Origin: Saksenaea vasiformis B4078
Taxonomy: Eukaryota; Mucoromycota; Mucoromycetes; Mucorales; Saksenaeaceae
NCBI GenBank assembly: GCA_000697055.1
Contig: JNDT01002040.1
Location: forward strand, 1 to 64,000
DNA length: 64,000 nt
Direction: 5' to 3'
Of this stretch, positions 7,401 to 15,400 are shown in pieces (positions within the stretch are counted from its first letter, which is position 1; every line of letters starts with the position of its first letter). The translations under genes were made by a program, and so were the position numbers. The notes beneath the pieces were generated by a model that worked only from the letters and a program-made list of their open reading frames with translations, was not told where the DNA came from and made no database searches.

Positions 7401-8824
7401 CGATTTTGCAACCCAAATTCGTCTTCCCATCTCACCGTCTTCCTACCAATACGCCCCTTCCTCACTCCTACCCTAAATACCCACCAACACTTACATCCAC
7501 TGGTATCTCTTATCTCAGACGCGCATCTGGTAACGCGTCCCACAACCCGGCACTATCATGCCAAAAGATCCCAAGACCGCGCCACTCATCATCACGTCGT
7601 CGCGTCTATTAGATCCGCATCTAATCAGTGCCCTGCCTCATACTTTTGGAGCTCAATAATTACTGCCATAACCGATGGATGCATCTCAGAGTGCAAACTG
7701 AGAGACACTGCTTATTTGGATGAAGACCAAGTCCTCGCGTCCTCATTTCGTATAAACAATAAATAATATTAATATGCAAGAGAAAGCTAACAGATCTTTC
7801 ACCCTTCAACATAGTATTTCTTCTTTATATCTCTTCTTCTCTTTCTATTCTACCTTTCTTGGCAGATCAAGCGAGAGCAGCAAGACTTCAATAAGCATGT
7901 GTTTACCATCGTTAAATCCATATTAAAATTCATCGCGCCCCCAGTGTCTCCTTTTATAGAAGTACCTTCAAGTGGGGTACCTCCAATTTATCGCTATCCT
8001 AAAGAACGTTTGCACGGTTAGAGAAGCTGACACAGCCAAATCCTTCGGTTGCTGCTGTGGCGTCACATGGGCGTATCGCGATTTTAAACACCGCCATCAG
8101 CACCGACTTGAGGACTCGCCTGCGGTGTCTGTGGTGTTCTGCGCCAATAAAAACGACGAGTTAGTCTTCGGAACCAGAAATCAGCGAATGAATACCTCCA
8201 GTTAATCTTCGGATGTTAAAGACAGCAAATAAAATCACTCAGTTAATCTTCGGACTTCTATGGCGACGGAATTCCAAAATTAGGTGCCTCCCTCCACCCA
8301 ACTCTAAACCCTTTTATTCATCAGTCCGTCACCTATGAACACTCCGTAATAGCAACATAACGACCACATGCATATGAACAAGTATTAGCTTCCATTGATG
8401 CCAACATTTCAGAGGAGATTTTCGAAGAAGACGAGGTAGTAGCAAATCCCTTTGAGCCCTATTTTCAGCAACTGCAGCAAAAAATGAGTGGCGAAATAAG
8501 AAGATCTACCACACTAGTGGTGTAACGACAACAGTTAATGAGATACAAGAATCTGACAGGAAGAGAAGTTCTTAATCTTTGTTCTTTTACCGTTAAATAT
8601 TTTTCACGACAGTAAAATGGATGGTAGGCTGATATATGAGTTGCACAGACCAAATGCCTTTTCTTAAAACGCATGATCAGTATTCTCTTGATCCAACATT
8701 GTTGTATTACCCATGTCTTATCTGCTTTCTGGCTCCTGAGCCTATCTATTCGAAGCAGTATCGCATCATGAAGAACGAAACAGCCATTTGGCAACAATTC
8801 TTTCTTCCTTTTTAATAATCAAAC
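7401..8824 (+). other. Possible remainder of transposon; no intact gene
   Basis: Proline-rich and basic frames occur at 7400-7760, 7865-8030 and 8350-8500, none with a start or complete splice set. The stretch 8350-8520 encodes an acidic peptide ending in a stop and could be an upstream exon of the Fanzor gene or of the MULE relic. I see nothing further that can be supported. Confidence 0.4.
8200..8254. repeat. Short direct repeat agttaatcttcgga
   Basis: The 14-mer occurs at 8200-8213 and 8241-8254, 41 bp apart, with a related copy (gttagtcttcgga) at about 8160. It may be part of a mobile-element end; no function is assigned. Confidence 0.6.
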
Positions 8825-11800
8825 ATGGACAGACAACGCCCAGAAGTTGAAGAGCCCCCACCCCGCAGGAGACGATATGGGTACCAGAACAGCCCTATCT
8901 CTCAGTTACCTGGGCGCGACTATTCGTTCGTTCGGAAGTTAAAACTTTGTAATTTCCTGCAGCACGGTTACAAGCCGCTTAGAGTACTGTATTATGAAAT
9001 TCCCATCTAAACCCTTCAAATATATTAAACATATGTTGGTAGGTGTTTTGCGTTCAGTGGCAGAAGAGTATGCAAACGCTTGTCAGTGTGCAATGTACCT
9101 TGTCAATTTGCACATCCATCGTTGGATCGATGGCCAGTTCGAGACTTTCCCTCCTGTACAGAATGAATCTTTCTTTAGCACCGCGTTTAAAATGATCCTG
9201 GCCCGAGATGCTGGCACACACCTTCGAGTACCGTTTGTATGTAGCGACGTCAGGAAATCTTCAGGATAAGCTAGATCTACTCTCCTGATCACAGTCCAAT
9301 TACCGTTGGTGCGTTGATCTAAAGCAAACGTTCCAAAACTACTTCAATCTTTGCAGAATTAATCCAGAGACACTTGGTATACAAATAAAATTTGTAAGGC
9401 TAAATACACTTATAATTTTTGCAGTAAACTACGAGCTGCCCAGTTTAACCGGCATTCTAAAAGAATTGGCGCCGTCCTTTGCAGGGAAAATAGTTGCTAG
9501 TAAGTGGAACTATTGGAGAAGAAGAAAACACAAACTTTTCGTATTTATAGACACATACCTACACATCACGTCAAATCTTCAAATATATATGAAGCGAACC
9601 TTCGTTGCCTTTTTTGATGAACTATTTGCGAACCACCCGCAAAATCAGCGACACGATGCGAGAAGCCTAGGTATTACTCCACTGCTTAATGTATTTGCTT
9701 TACGTTGTTTACGTGATATCGCCTTGCTTCCAATTTATAGCTTCCGGATGTGTCCGGGGAATAGCAACGCAAGAAAATTTTGACCGTAGTGCATGGACAA
9801 CTTTAGATGATGATCCAATCACCGAGCTTGAAGTTTTTTATGGGTATGATAAGTCAAGATGTTGATTTATTTTCTTCCTCACTATTAATTACCGTTGGGT
9901 GCTTTCTAGAGAGTTTCAGAATGTTTACCAGGAAAATCTTGGCAATATCGATATAACCGCAGACCTCAGTGACGATGAAAAACAGCGGTTGCTTCCCTTT
10001 ATGCTTCGTCTCTCAGAATTGATGCTTAAGCAAACCAATGAACTCGATGGCAAAGGCTGGTCTCTCATTCCATTGGCTAAAAATCAGATAGGTATGCTTA
10101 AACCTGATGAACATATCTGAACCATAACATGGACTAAATAATAATATCGTGCTAGGTTATTTCCCTGTAACTGGTAAAATACTTTACTGGGCGCTTAAAG
10201 ACATTACCACCACCAATCTCCCGGAAAACTTAGCAGTAAGTGTTTCGTAAAGAAAAGCCTAGTATAACTAATGAAAAATTGATATTCTTGCTCTAGGGTC
10301 CTTTGCAGGACTTTCATAGCTTCAATAATGCGCACAAGGACGTGATATACCGTGAACAGCTCTGGGAAACAATCTTCTGCCTCGATAGGGTCATGCCTCG
10401 CCGCCGCCGTGCACAAGGTTGGGTTAGGTCCAATTGCATTGGAGTAATATCCTTACACTTGTTCATATAAGGGGTAAACAATGATGAGCTACCAGAAATT
10501 GAATTTGATTATGGCTTTGAAACCGATGGTGTTATGGTGGCGGTCAGATTCAAATCCCACAAACCGAACCAAGGTCAGTTCAGTCTTTGCTATACCGAAG
10601 CATGCTAACGGAAAAATCGCATCTCAGCATCTTATCCCTCCTCCCAAAGAGACTTTCAATTCCTTCCTCGGGACAGGGATTTCTCTAATTTGCAGCGTGG
10701 CATCTACCATTTGAAGAAGGAGCCTACAGGCTTAACAGTCGCACGTGATTTAGACCCTGAAATAACCCGAATAGTGGGGATCGATCCTGGTATGCTCCTT
10801 GCTATGAAGAATCTGACAAAGACTATATACGTATTTCCAGGTATTCGTTCCCTTGTGACTGCCGTAGACACAGCGGAGGATCTGCATGACGAAGATGCAA
10901 GAAATAGTCGTACATTTTCTATCACGAACGGTTATTATCAGTAAGAACAAGGTCCTGTATGTAGTCAGCACAATAATTACATACTTTTTTAGAGCCAGCT
11001 CCAAATTTAACTGGAGTCTTCAGATAGAAAGGAAAAATTGTGACATCGCCAACATGCAAGAAGTCTATGATCGTCTGTCGGAACACCCTAAGACGGCTTC
11101 ATCTGTTCTGGAATTCCAGCGATTTCTCACGGCGCAATTTAGCGAAAAACAGAGGTAGCTGTAGAACATTCTTGTCAATATTGAATGGATTTTTTCCAGG
11201 ATGGATGAGTTCAACCGTCATTACAGACACAGGGAAAGGCGTGCCTTGCAGGTCTCTTCCAGAAGTATGACCATGGACGTTATTGCAGACCAGGTCGGGG
11301 ATTTTATCCCAATTCAACTCTGGTGAGCATTTGACTGCTTACTCTTCATTCATTAATTATGTCTCTGTTTCAGCCTCCAGTTGCAAACGTCCAAAAACAG
11401 AATAAAAAGTCGCGGTATCGCCAACGTCGTCAACACCGTGCGGCTCAAAACAGTAGACGTGACCAGCGCCGAGCGCTTGTGGCATACGGAGTTGCCGACC
11501 TGCATAATGGAGGCTATAAGACGTATGCACCGTTACCAGTGAAGGTGAGAGTGGCGAAGTTCTCTTGGTAGTAAGAATCCTACTAATATTTATTATCCAT
11601 GTGTAGTCCTTTCGCAAGGTTCTAGCACAGCGATGTCCAGTCATATGCGTAGACGAGTACAAAACCAGCAAAGTATGCAGCATTGTCATCACGACACAGT
11701 TGATTTCCGTGACTATAACATGCAGCTGTGTAATCATCGGTATGTTTGGGAAACAAATGGGCACAATGGAAAGCTGACTCATACAAATTAATCTCTAGTA

Positions 11801-12212
11801 AAAAGTATATCAGGCGTCGGCATCATAAGCATAAGCGTCAATATTGCTTAGATGACGACGAGCAGATTCTACATCTTAGCAGTGAATGCCCCGATAGGCG
11901 CCGACCTGGTATGGTTTAGTGTTGCTTGCATACGTTTTTCTTTAACACAGGAATAGCTCGCAATAATCATAGAAATATTGTCTATCCTATCCGACTGTGT
12001 CCTCAGTGCGCGTATGATAGACGAGGAATCAGAACATCTCTAGTAACTCGTACTGCTTGACTTGACTCATTGATTCTTAACTATTTGATTAGTTCTGGAA
12101 TAGAGATGTTAATGCCGGGCGGAACATTCGTGATATCTTTGTTCGCTACATCGAATCCGGATGCCAGTTAGCTTCTCGCCCGGCAGCACTGTCCAGGACA
12201 GTTAGGCAGTAA
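8825..12212 (+). CDS. Fanzor1-type RNA-guided endonuclease (TnpB relative)
   Basis: About 18 exons with consistent GT..AG introns give about 830 residues. Proposed exons: 8825-8966, 9043-9236, 9295-9376, 9425-9499, 9551-9670, 9741-9843, 9910-10091, 10156-10235, 10297-10417, 10472-10573, 10628-10940, 10993-11154, 11200-11322 or -11293, 11374-11544, 11607-11739, 11799-11908, 11951-12042, 12093-12212. Hallmarks in order: FETDGVMVAV (about 10516-10545), typical of Fanzor1; RuvC-I GIDPG (Asp codon 10783-10785); RuvC-II VDEYKTSKVCS (Glu codon 11655-11657); zinc-binding cysteines including CPQC; RuvC-III WNRDVNAGRNI (Asp codon 12105-12107). Fanzors are nuclear, guided by an RNA encoded near the 3' end, and cut DNA with the RuvC site. 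Phases match across exons 1-13 and 16-18. Exon 15 is one base short, with the break near 11682 between CS and CH of the zinc finger, and the 13/14 junction fits only with the weaker donor at 11294. The copy is either recently inactivated or mis-sequenced. The ATG at 8825 has A at -3. Confidence 0.88.
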
Positions 12213-12475
12213 GGAACTGCTCACTCGTCACTTTGTATGACACGTAAGAATCGGGTCTGACTTCCGCCAATCATCTAACAATCGGAGATTTCAGGGCTAC
12301 AGACATGGTCACATAGCCGCGACTTGACACGTATGACCCGTCGTTGCACGACGTTTGCTTGCCCACCAACATCATCCTCATCAGGTAGAATACCTTCTTC
12401 CACTACAAAGCAAGTTACATTGTACTTATATATATCCTGAAGTGCAAATTAAGGAAACGAGGAACGATTGGAACC
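12213..12475 (+). other. Fanzor 3' flank / SEC31 promoter; candidate guide-RNA region
   Basis: Only 263 bp separate the Fanzor stop from the SEC31 start. The segment holds a perfect 5-bp-stem hairpin (12339-12353, loop ttgca) and two copies of tgacacgta (about 12236 and 12324). In Fanzor and TnpB loci the guide RNA usually overlaps or follows the nuclease 3' end, so this is where it should be sought. No RNA structure can be proven by eye. Confidence 0.3.
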
Positions 12476-15400
12476 ATGGCCAAAAAACTCAGCGACATTC
12501 ATCGAACAGCAGCGTTTGCCTGGAGCCCTGGGCATCAGCTACCTTTCATCGCGGCTGGCACTGTTGCAGGCGCCCTTGATGATTCTTTCTCCAACGCGTC
12601 CGAACTCGAACTTTTCAAGCTTGATTTCACAAGTTCCGCTACAAAGGACCTTGCACCTGCAGGCAAAGTGAATAGTAACGCCAGGTAGAGAGAAGGAGTA
12701 GAGTATTCGCGCATTCCATTGCAATTTCTGACACGGATCATACTAGATTCAATACCCTCGCTTGGGGAAATGTAACTACTGAGAAACCCTATGGTGTCAT
12801 TGTGGGCGGTTTAGAAAACGGTGAACTCGAACTGTGGGACCCCGCTGCTATTTTGGACGGCAAAAGGTGCATTCATCATAGGTTAAATATGTTGGCTAAG
12901 CGTGTTCTAGTGACAGCGAAGCTCTGATTTTGCGGAACTCAACACATACAGGTTCCGTGCGTGAGCTCGATTTTAATACCGTTCAGCCAAATCTCCTGGC
13001 GTCTGTTGGTAGCAACAGCGAGGTAAGCTTTGTCGGGACGGGATATGTCCAAAACATCTAACGTTATTTTGGCGAAGATTTATATTTGGGATCTTTCACA
13101 ACCAGCGAAACCATATGCGCCCGGCGCTCGCTCTGCAAAGTTGACTGATATCACCAGCGTCGCATGGAATTGCCAAGTACCACACATCTTATCGACTTCG
13201 TCCACGACTGGCAATACAGTTGTTTGGGATCTGCGAAACCGCAAGGAAGTCATGACCCTTGCTTACGCTGGACCGAATGCTGGAGGCATAGCTGGTGGTA
13301 GTCGACTGGGTATCTCTGCTGCTGCCTGGCATCCTGATGTGGTATGTGTGTACACCAAAAGATTGGACATCAAAATACTTATTTGGCGTCTAGGCAACAC
13401 AATTGGTTACTGCTTGCGAGGATGATAATAATCCAGTGATTACGCTGTGGGATCTCCGTCATGCACATTCCCCCGAGAAAACACTTACTGGCCATCAGAA
13501 GGGTGTTCTAGGTGTATCTTGGTGCCACCAAGATTCGGATCTCTTGGTGTCCTGCGGCAAAGATAGCAGAACCCTTTGCTGGAATCCCCGCACTGGTGAA
13601 ATGTTAGGTCAAGTTTCGCAAAATACCAACTGGACATTCCAAGCTGAATGGTGTCCTCGCAATCCTGATTTGTTGGCTACCGCTTCCTTCGATGGACAGG
13701 TAAAAAAGAAACTAACTGCTACTGATTTCAAAGGAAGTTGACATTGTGTATAGATCAATGTTTTCTCGATCCAAGGTTCTGTTAATGAGGAAGAAGAGCC
13801 GGCGGAAGCAAAGCAGGCAGCTCATGCTGACGATCCATTTTCTGCTGCAATCCTTAGCGCAGCCGCTCCTAAGCCATCTTTCTCGTTGAAACATCCACCC
13901 AAGTGGCTCCGTAGACCTGTTGGTGCATCGTTCAGTTTTAGTGGAAAGTTGGTATCGTTTAATAATAAGGCCGGTCAAGCAGTTGCTACTTTGCTCCCCG
14001 GAACGGCGCCAGCGCCAGAACAAATTCCTCGTTCTGTGACAGTATCCACAGTAGTCACTAGTCCAGAAATCGTCCAGCGTTCAACAGAGTTGGAAGCTGC
14101 CGCAGATCAACAGACTTACGAAAAGTTTATTGAAGAGAGACAAAAACAGTTGGCCGAAAATAAGGAGGAGCGCGAAAATTGGGAGGTTATGCAGGCCCTC
14201 TTCGCCGAAAATGCCAGAGAGCAATTAATGCGACATTTGGGATTCCAAAAAGACGAAGCGGTATCGGCAGCTGCGGCAGTGATCGACAATAAGGAAACAG
14301 ACTCTGCGACAACAGAAAACGAAGAAGCCAAATCGGAAGCTGAGCCGGAAGTCCAGGCGGATGAACAATCAGAAAAGCAAGAGAGCGAAAAGCCTGACGA
14401 AGCTGAATCGGAAGGAGTGGAAAATGGCGCACCCTCGTCAACTGATGCTCTTTCGGGACTTTTCAAGTCATCTGATGGACAATCGCCTGACCAAGAGTTC
14501 TTTGGACAGGTATCTGAACAGAATGTCTCGTTGCTAGCTGCCTCTTTGGAAACGGCAGTGAAGAGCGAACCTTTGGAATTGTATCCTTCCTCTGGTACCG
14601 AGACAGATCGTCTTATTACGCGTTCCGTTGTCCTTGGCGACTTTGAAACTGCTGTGCAGCTGTGTCTTTCTTCCGACAGACTTTCAGACGCTTTGATGTT
14701 GGCTATTTGTGGAGGAAACGATTTGCTGGTGCGTACACAGAAGGCGTACTTTGAACGTCAGGCCAAGACGTCAAGTTATTTGCGTTTGTTGGAAAGCATT
14801 GTGGACGAAGATCTGACTGCAGTTGTACAAAACACATCCCTCGAGGAATGGGCATCTGTCTTTGTCGTCCTTTGCTCGTTTGCCCAAGCTGACCAGTTCA
14901 GTCCTCTCTGTGAAGCGCTGGGCAGACGTCTTGAAGAAGACGGACGTAAGGAATCCACTCAGCGTGCGCTACTGTGTTACCTTGCCGCTGGTAGCTTAGA
15001 AAAGGTGACCAACATTTGGATTGCCCAGCAGGAGGAAAGCAAGGACGAGGCGGGATCTAGTCTGCAAAACCTCATGGAAAAGATTACTGTGTTCCGAAAG
15101 GCGATTGGATTTGAAGATCCAGCTCTTACGGAAGAGCAAGAAACTACATACCACCTGGCTGCCCTCTACGACAAATACTGTGAGTATGCCGAACTCTTGG
15201 CTTCTCAGGGCAAGCTTGATATTGCTCTTAAGTACCTTAGCCTGACACCAGCCAACTACCGCAAATCATCGTCCGACCATGTTTCTGTGGTTCATGATAG
15301 AATCTACCGTGCGTATACCGGAGCTAGTCAAATTTCTTCCGCAGAGCCATCATTTCCCTTCGAGAAGAAGTCAGTGGGTGCTGTTGAAGCTGTCACCGAA

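Follow-up and report, generated by a model that had tools for sequence, protein, structure and literature searches.

A multicopy transposon family of Saksenaea vasiformis that very probably carries a Fanzor1 gene of 19 exons, with a conserved 3' block as omegaRNA candidate

Introduction

The presence of Fanzor1 genes in transposons of mucoromycetes has been on record since 2013, and families in Mucor hold as many as 11 copies (PMC3627910, available part); other Fanzor elements reach hundreds of copies (PMC10711439, available part). In ROr-4, PBl-3, MCi-4, MCi-2 and MCi-5, Fanzor1 is carried by fungal DNA transposons, several of which have no complete transposase of their own; their target duplications are 9 bp (MuDR-like), 11-12 bp or putatively 6 bp long (excerpts of PMC3627910). 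Most Fz1 proteins are 600-700 amino acids long, and PpFz1 of Parasitella parasitica is a Mucorales Fanzor1 with extra residues in the RuvC domain (excerpts of PMC11423790). SpuFz1 of Spizellomyces punctatus (8gkh), also a fungal Fanzor1, has a RuvC Asp, then a Glu within DE(Y/F)(K/R)TS-xx-C and then another Asp. A Fanzor signature of DPG plus E-x6-CxxC spacing has been described, and terminal repeats with target duplications have been proposed as part of Fanzor1 guide-RNA scaffolds (both in the available part of PMC10711439). A longer Fanzor1 motif is D-X(125,275)-[TS][TS]XX-C4-X(5,50)-RD (PMC3627910, in excerpt).

The window analysed here is a stretch of 64,000 nucleotides of S. vasiformis B4078 (contig JNDT01002040.1, positions 1 to 64,000). 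A first-pass annotation of it had described a near-complete Fanzor1 gene of about 18 exons and about 830 residues next to SEC31. The locus resembles the fungal elements named above in that a DNA transposon carries the gene, and differs from them in its 8-bp duplications and 5-bp terminal repeats. The predicted protein shares the order of catalytic residues with SpuFz1 but is 797 amino acids long, has 70 residues between its two CxxC pairs and 204 residues between catalytic Asp and Glu, against 158 in SpuFz1 (numbering from the available part of PMC10432273), and shows no direct sequence match to it. No sequence match was found between PpFz1 and the window family. The combination of an 8-bp duplication, 5-bp ends, 18 introns, a wide zinc finger and a flank bias was not found in the open-access literature searched.

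Results

Ends, target duplications and location of the element

Similarity between copies ended on the left at window positions 8112-8115 and on the right at 12318. The features of the element outside the gene were as follows.

8104..8111, no strand: left target site duplication CGACTTGA, identical to the 8 bases at 12320-12327
8112..12318, + strand: transposon copy, limits set where inter-copy similarity ends; left end GGACTCGCC (GGCTCGCC in most relatives), right end GTCACATAGCC (GTCACGGAGCC in many relatives)
8160..8254, + strand: three subterminal repeats GTTAATCTTCGGA at 8160 (one mismatch), 8201 and 8242, read from the sequence
12294..12318, + strand: terminal hairpin GGGCTA..TAGCC at the right end; the neighbouring base outside is mostly C in sister copies and G here
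12320..12327, no strand: right target site duplication CGACTTGA, preceded by one extra base

The terminal inverted repeat was 5 bp long, the commonest ends being GGCTCGCC... and ...GTCACGGAGCC. The subterminal GTTAATCTTCGGA repeats are possible transposase sites, a putative function. Exact 8-bp direct repeats lay at the boundaries of 7 of the 13 copies with both ends placed (L012, L013, L014, L016, L021, L023 and L025, with L021 lacking a few left bases). By eye, the duplication of L010 was mismatched at 1 of 8 positions, and L011, L018, L020 and L024, with both ends placed, showed no target duplication. These direct repeats look like the duplications of cut-and-paste transposition; with exact 8-bp duplications, the carrier of the Fanzor gene is a eukaryotic, non-IS607 transposon, since such duplications are not the habit of IS607-like elements. 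The window copy measured 4.2 kb, and the copies with both ends placed about 4.1-5.0 kb. Inspection by eye of the bases left of the duplications in 8 copies gave no common bases that could represent a TAM, and a search for an empty second allele of the window insertion site found none.

Downstream of the window copy, at a distance of about 160 bp as read from the sequence, lies the likely start of SEC31. The neighbouring gene gave a Sec16-like TPR match of 23.0 bits against a cut-off of 22, consistent with the SEC31 of the first-pass annotation.

The left part of the element varied between copies. Window positions 8754-8786 amount to about 30 bases, and the corresponding point of L014, L016 and L018 is occupied by about 0.38 or 0.79 kb. 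In the left part of L014, about 0.2 kb inside the element and upstream of the Fanzor gene, there was an open frame of 63 codons, which by eye closed early in the window copy and was frame-shifted in L018. The insertion of L018 lay directly against CACGGAGCC, the element's own right-end sequence, on its left flank, perhaps an insertion beside another element end.

Copies in the genome

DNA searches were run against the genome that the window comes from, an assembly of 38.7 Mb in 666 contigs. With the gene as query and 40 of the 84 candidates scored, at least 41 matches were obtained; one is the window copy itself, and the remainder have 79-97% identity. Two of the matched pieces adjoin on contig C632. 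With the right end as query and 40 of the 43 candidates scored, there were at least 40 matches, among them the window copy and a fragment of 96 bases. Twenty gene copies were retrieved in addition to the window copy, and three right ends were identical over 120 bases. The gene identity of 97%, the identical right ends and the exact duplications point to fairly recent moves.

Partial matches had hinted at 5' truncation of copies. This idea was dropped because the retrieved partial copies stop at contig ends (L019, L027, L031, L032, L037-L040 and L042). Among the matches inspected, no gene-less copy with a whole scaffold was found; the solo right end L043/L045 keeps 96 bases and therefore at most the last 20 or so bases of the conserved block described below.

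Gene model, open and broken copies

The exons were derived from substitution periodicity and splice sites in an alignment of 20 copies, the window copy and 19 others (the partial copy L027, which lies at a contig end, was omitted). Several boundaries were adjusted manually once the alignment had been inspected. A reading based solely on the window copy had forced splice choices and was replaced by the comparison among copies.

8825..12212, + strand: very probable Fanzor1 gene of 19 exons, broken in the window copy (comparative, partly hand-set model)
Exons 1-7, + strand: 8825-8983, 9043-9236, 9295-9376, 9425-9499, 9551-9670, 9741-9843, 9910-10091
Exons 8-13, + strand: 10156-10235, 10297-10417, 10472-10573, 10628-10789, 10841-10940, 10993-11154
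Exons 14-19, + strand: 11200-11322, 11374-11544, 11607-11739, 11799-11908, 11951-12042, 12093-12212

In this model the spliced gene runs from ATG to TAA over exactly 8825-12212, as first annotated, and the motifs FETDGV, GIDPG, VDEYKTS and WNRDVNAGRNI were confirmed in that order. The predicted count of 19 exons replaces the earlier figure of about 18, and the shared protein of 797 residues that of about 830. Sites variable in at least two of the 20 copies numbered 109/798 at codon position 1, 106/797 at position 2 and 357/797 at position 3, a periodicity that is not produced by chance.

The description of the gene as near-complete did not hold for the window copy, which has three one-base length differences from the other copies, at the exon 2 acceptor (~9041), in exon 14 (~11297) and in exon 16 (~11683, within the zinc finger). 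At two of these sites the difference falls in a short G run, where sequencing error may account for it. As assembled, the window copy is predicted to be unable to make the full protein. Six of the 20 copies (L012, L013, L015, L018, L025 and L028) were fully open with all GT/AG sites, three (L010, L014 and L016) had splice-site changes alone, and 11 had frameshifts or in-frame stops, among them L019, which is also cut by a contig end.

Selection and decay

Purifying selection was evident between the open copies. In the 15 pairs among the six, dN/dS was 0.12-0.29 at dS of 0.08-0.92, and pairs with dS above 0.15 had dN/dS of 0.12-0.19. Private changes amounted to 0.49% at positions 1 and 2 and 0.51% at position 3 in five open copies (L028 left out), and to 0.81% and 0.54%, respectively, in the 11 broken copies; they carry no coding constraint, even in open copies. 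Neutral private changes are expected of single transposon copies, and the pattern is read as selection on the lineage that keeps jumping while single copies drift, the usual transposon picture. The idea that dead copies are retained as guide donors was not supported, since private changes in the 3' block of the 11 broken copies ran at the neutral rate (0.86%, 7/810, against 0.78% in introns).

Protein features and homology

The exons that hold the predicted active site and zinc finger are the following.

10628..10789, + strand: exon encoding GIDPG, the RuvC-I motif, with Asp 459 in family numbering; present in 6/6 open copies
11607..11739, + strand: exon encoding VDEYKTS, whose Glu 663 is the alternative catalytic residue, and the first CxxC; shifted by one base near 11683 in the window copy
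12093..12212, + strand: last exon with WNRDVNAGRNI (third catalytic Asp); Asp changed in 1/6 open copies (L013)

GIDPG, E-x6-CxxC and the second CxxC were present in all six open copies and the third Asp in five. Both parts of the Fanzor signature of PMC10711439 (available part) were found, the DPG in the window copy as well and the alternative Glu as E663-YKTSKV-C670xxC673. The longer motif of PMC3627910 (in excerpt) was matched by D459, T666 S667, CxxC at 670 and 744, and R762 D763; L013 alone among the six open copies lacks its RD. Further cysteines at 688, 707 and 721, between the pairs, are conserved in a homolog from Rhizomucor, which has neither the second Cys of the first pair nor the second pair. 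Among 7996 candidates scored in a length-limited search of the protein database, this hypothetical protein of Rhizomucor pusillus (29% identity, E 5e-28) was the one homolog found; querying with the C-terminal part gave no homolog.

The Pfam zinc-ribbon score was borderline. PF07282 scored 26.4 bits in L028 against a cut-off of 26.3 and 24.7 bits in an early L014 model, and at E 1e-3 it had no match in L025 or P0001 (one of three members of A2 matched). An NCBIfam search with the family protein returned nothing, direct PDB searches with the window family or with L047 alone reached no Fanzor, and the best PDB matches of the mixed profile A4 were weak and to the TnpB-like LaTranC (E 0.012).

The link to known Fanzor1s ran through two other loci of the same genome. 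L047:99-2402 (-) is an intronless 768-aa Fanzor1 by its profile matches, and L048:560-1915 (+) is a partial copy of it, 91% identical, with GADPG where L047 has GADPR. Their homologs were P0002-P0005, of which two are named, from Lipomyces kononenkoae and Circinella umbellata. L047/L048 share with the window family 31% identity over 175 residues, the motif order and the size class; unlike that family, L047 is a single-exon frame with a shorter zinc finger. The pairwise E value between L047 and the window family was 2e-12 (best of three family members tested in a four-sequence comparison). Profile to profile, the L047 group matched the family at E 6e-21 over residues 296-775. The two best PDB matches of a group profile built from L047, L048, four database homologs and P0001 were SpuFz1 (2e-10) and GtFz1 (1e-6). 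The AlphaFold model of L047 was poor (mean pLDDT 51, RuvC part mostly under 50) and was therefore not used for a fold search.

From the active-site signature and this chain through intermediates, the gene is very probably a Fanzor1. The first-pass identification thus stands on those two lines, with Fanzor/TnpB homology reached through intermediates only. Its attribution of the copy to a mucoromycete is plausible in the light of the Rhizomucor pusillus homolog. Its claim that an extended N-terminal half explains the length was partly borne out, but extra residues also lie between catalytic Asp and Glu and between the CxxC pairs.

When the genome was scanned with PF07282 and 150 of 388 candidates were scored, at least 137 matches had an E value no higher than 1e-3, and only 6 of these were not marked as exceeding the curated cut-off. 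These matches are per exon or frame and are therefore not a gene count; judged from them, the genome holds many further Fanzor/TnpB-type genes.

Conserved block at the 3' end

The strongest conservation in the gene region lay at its 3' end.

12171..12245, + strand: most conserved stretch, candidate omegaRNA scaffold, straddling the stop codon, with three predicted hairpins

Between 8825 and 12245, 7 of 3353 69-nt windows had at most 3 variable columns, and all seven lay within this block, almost half of which is outside the reading frame. In the last 12 codons, 1 of 12 third positions varied in at least two copies, compared with 13 of 28 immediately before them (24 copies; L022, L026 and L028 left out). 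Nine copies that included L028 showed synonymous variation in 3 of these 12 codons against 401/797 overall, a contrast that is weak when taken alone. L028, the most divergent open copy, differed from the other five open copies at 26-32% of intron and 35-38% of third positions, at 1 or 2 of the last 12 third positions, and at 3/30 or 2/26 positions in the first 33 bases past the stop.

The predicted hairpins, from 22 distinct sequences among 25, were ACTGT/ACAGT, GCAGT/ACTGC (spanning the stop codon) and GTCA/TGAC; their invariant pairs are uninformative on pairing. In 5/5 copies the terminal 143-146 nt had a folding energy no lower than that of mononucleotide shuffles (z 0.07 to 0.28), and Rfam gave two matches over 8000-12500, both under the family cut-offs. 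On its conservation and position, the block may be an omegaRNA and is treated here as an unproven candidate.

Flanking base at the right end

The first base outside the right end was C in 20, T in 2 and G in 4 of 26 copies. A symmetric target preference predicts G at base 8 of the duplication, and G was found there in only 6/26, so the flank bias is one-sided. Pairing of GGGCU near the end with AGCC plus the flanking base is possible in 22/25 copies with G-U counted (L009, whose end is rearranged, left out), and the sixth pair of this terminal stem is A-U in 9 copies, C-G in L028 and unpaired in 15. The flanking C could thus complete a terminal RNA stem.

Source of the transposase

No transposase gene was recognised in the element at 8112-12318, where the Fanzor gene was the sole gene recognised (the family search covered the element without its left part), and no autonomous partner or transposase for the family was found. 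L033/L046, considered as a partner sharing the left end, was ruled out as a family copy whose left end is interrupted by an abundant repeat of about 0.8 kb. The candidate L044 proved to be a 123-base end fragment with no transposase in its surroundings by eye. The repeat in L046 (reverse strand, 119-913 of the queried stretch) had 997 first-look candidates, of which 40 were scored.

Transposase matches in the genome numbered 50 for hAT, 48 for MULE and 0 for the Merlin type; the KDZ search also gave 0, but its controls were silent too, so that answer is empty. Duplications are 8 bp long in hAT elements and about 9 bp in MULEs, and to our knowledge GGCTC ends are not typical of hAT. At the hAT locus L051, inverted ends with an 8-bp duplication were not found for comparison. 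At two places, G000:C531:67875-68591 and G000:C599:2383-3099, 273 bases separate a MULE transposase match from a strong zinc-ribbon match of the Fanzor type, and these pairs suggest a Fanzor carried by a MULE.

Discussion

The propagating lineage of this non-autonomous family has retained the Fanzor frame and the 3' block. We consider it likely that a DNA transposon moved by a transposase from elsewhere carries the 19-exon Fanzor1, with the 3' block as omegaRNA, the flank as guide and cutting of the unoccupied site in favour of the element. This reading builds on the observed ends, duplications, copy number, comparative gene model, selection, active-site signature, conserved 3' block and decay of the window copy. 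By analogy with known Fanzors, RNA from the 3' block to the right end would be the omegaRNA, and the bases past the right end would become the guide, such that the guide of each copy would match its own unoccupied insertion site. Fanzor made by open copies would then cut the unoccupied site, and repair off the occupied copy would keep or spread the element.

That the whole family is a dead remnant on which selection ended long ago is unlikely. Frameshifts or stops in 11 of 20 copies, splice-site changes alone in 3 more and private changes of 0.49% against 0.51% in the five open copies would fit it, but the last is what single transposon copies are expected to show, six copies are fully open, dN/dS is 0.12-0.19 where dS exceeds 0.15, and the close copies (97%), identical right ends and exact duplications speak for fairly recent moves. 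A prokaryotic-type TnpB or a Fanzor2 in place of Fanzor1 is highly improbable. The profile A4 matched the TnpB-like LaTranC best (E 0.012) and no Fanzor1 was reached directly; against this, 8-bp duplications are not IS607-like, and the top two PDB matches of the L047 group are the Fanzor1s SpuFz1 and GtFz1. The DPG and the alternative Glu also speak against an ordinary TnpB (PMC10711439, available part).

The 3' block could instead be a cis-element for transposition, by end recognition, or for transcript processing. We hold this to be rather doubtful. The block is near the right end, which a transposase must recognise, and its folding energy is ordinary; it nevertheless ends about 70 bases short of the element end, is largely retained in L028, whose outer end sequence differs, and extends from codons across the stop, an arrangement that Fz omegaRNAs can have (PMC10432273, in excerpt). 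The flank bias allows two accounts. In one, offered tentatively and with the odds against it, the omegaRNA takes in the first base of the duplication, and only insertions followed by C or U give a well-folded guide RNA and spread. The one-sided C bias would equally follow if the transposase had an asymmetric target preference. If the first account is true, that base would play in eukaryotes the part that the right-flanking nucleotide plays for IS607 TnpB.

For the probable Fanzor1-carrying transposon of S. vasiformis, a heavily intron-split gene with a wide zinc finger was nearly missed by direct profile searches. Its many related copies, several of them open, supply candidate guide RNAs in a natural series whose flanks are known, and the role of Fanzor for the transposon, the end of the scaffold and the TAM are therefore directly testable in this family.
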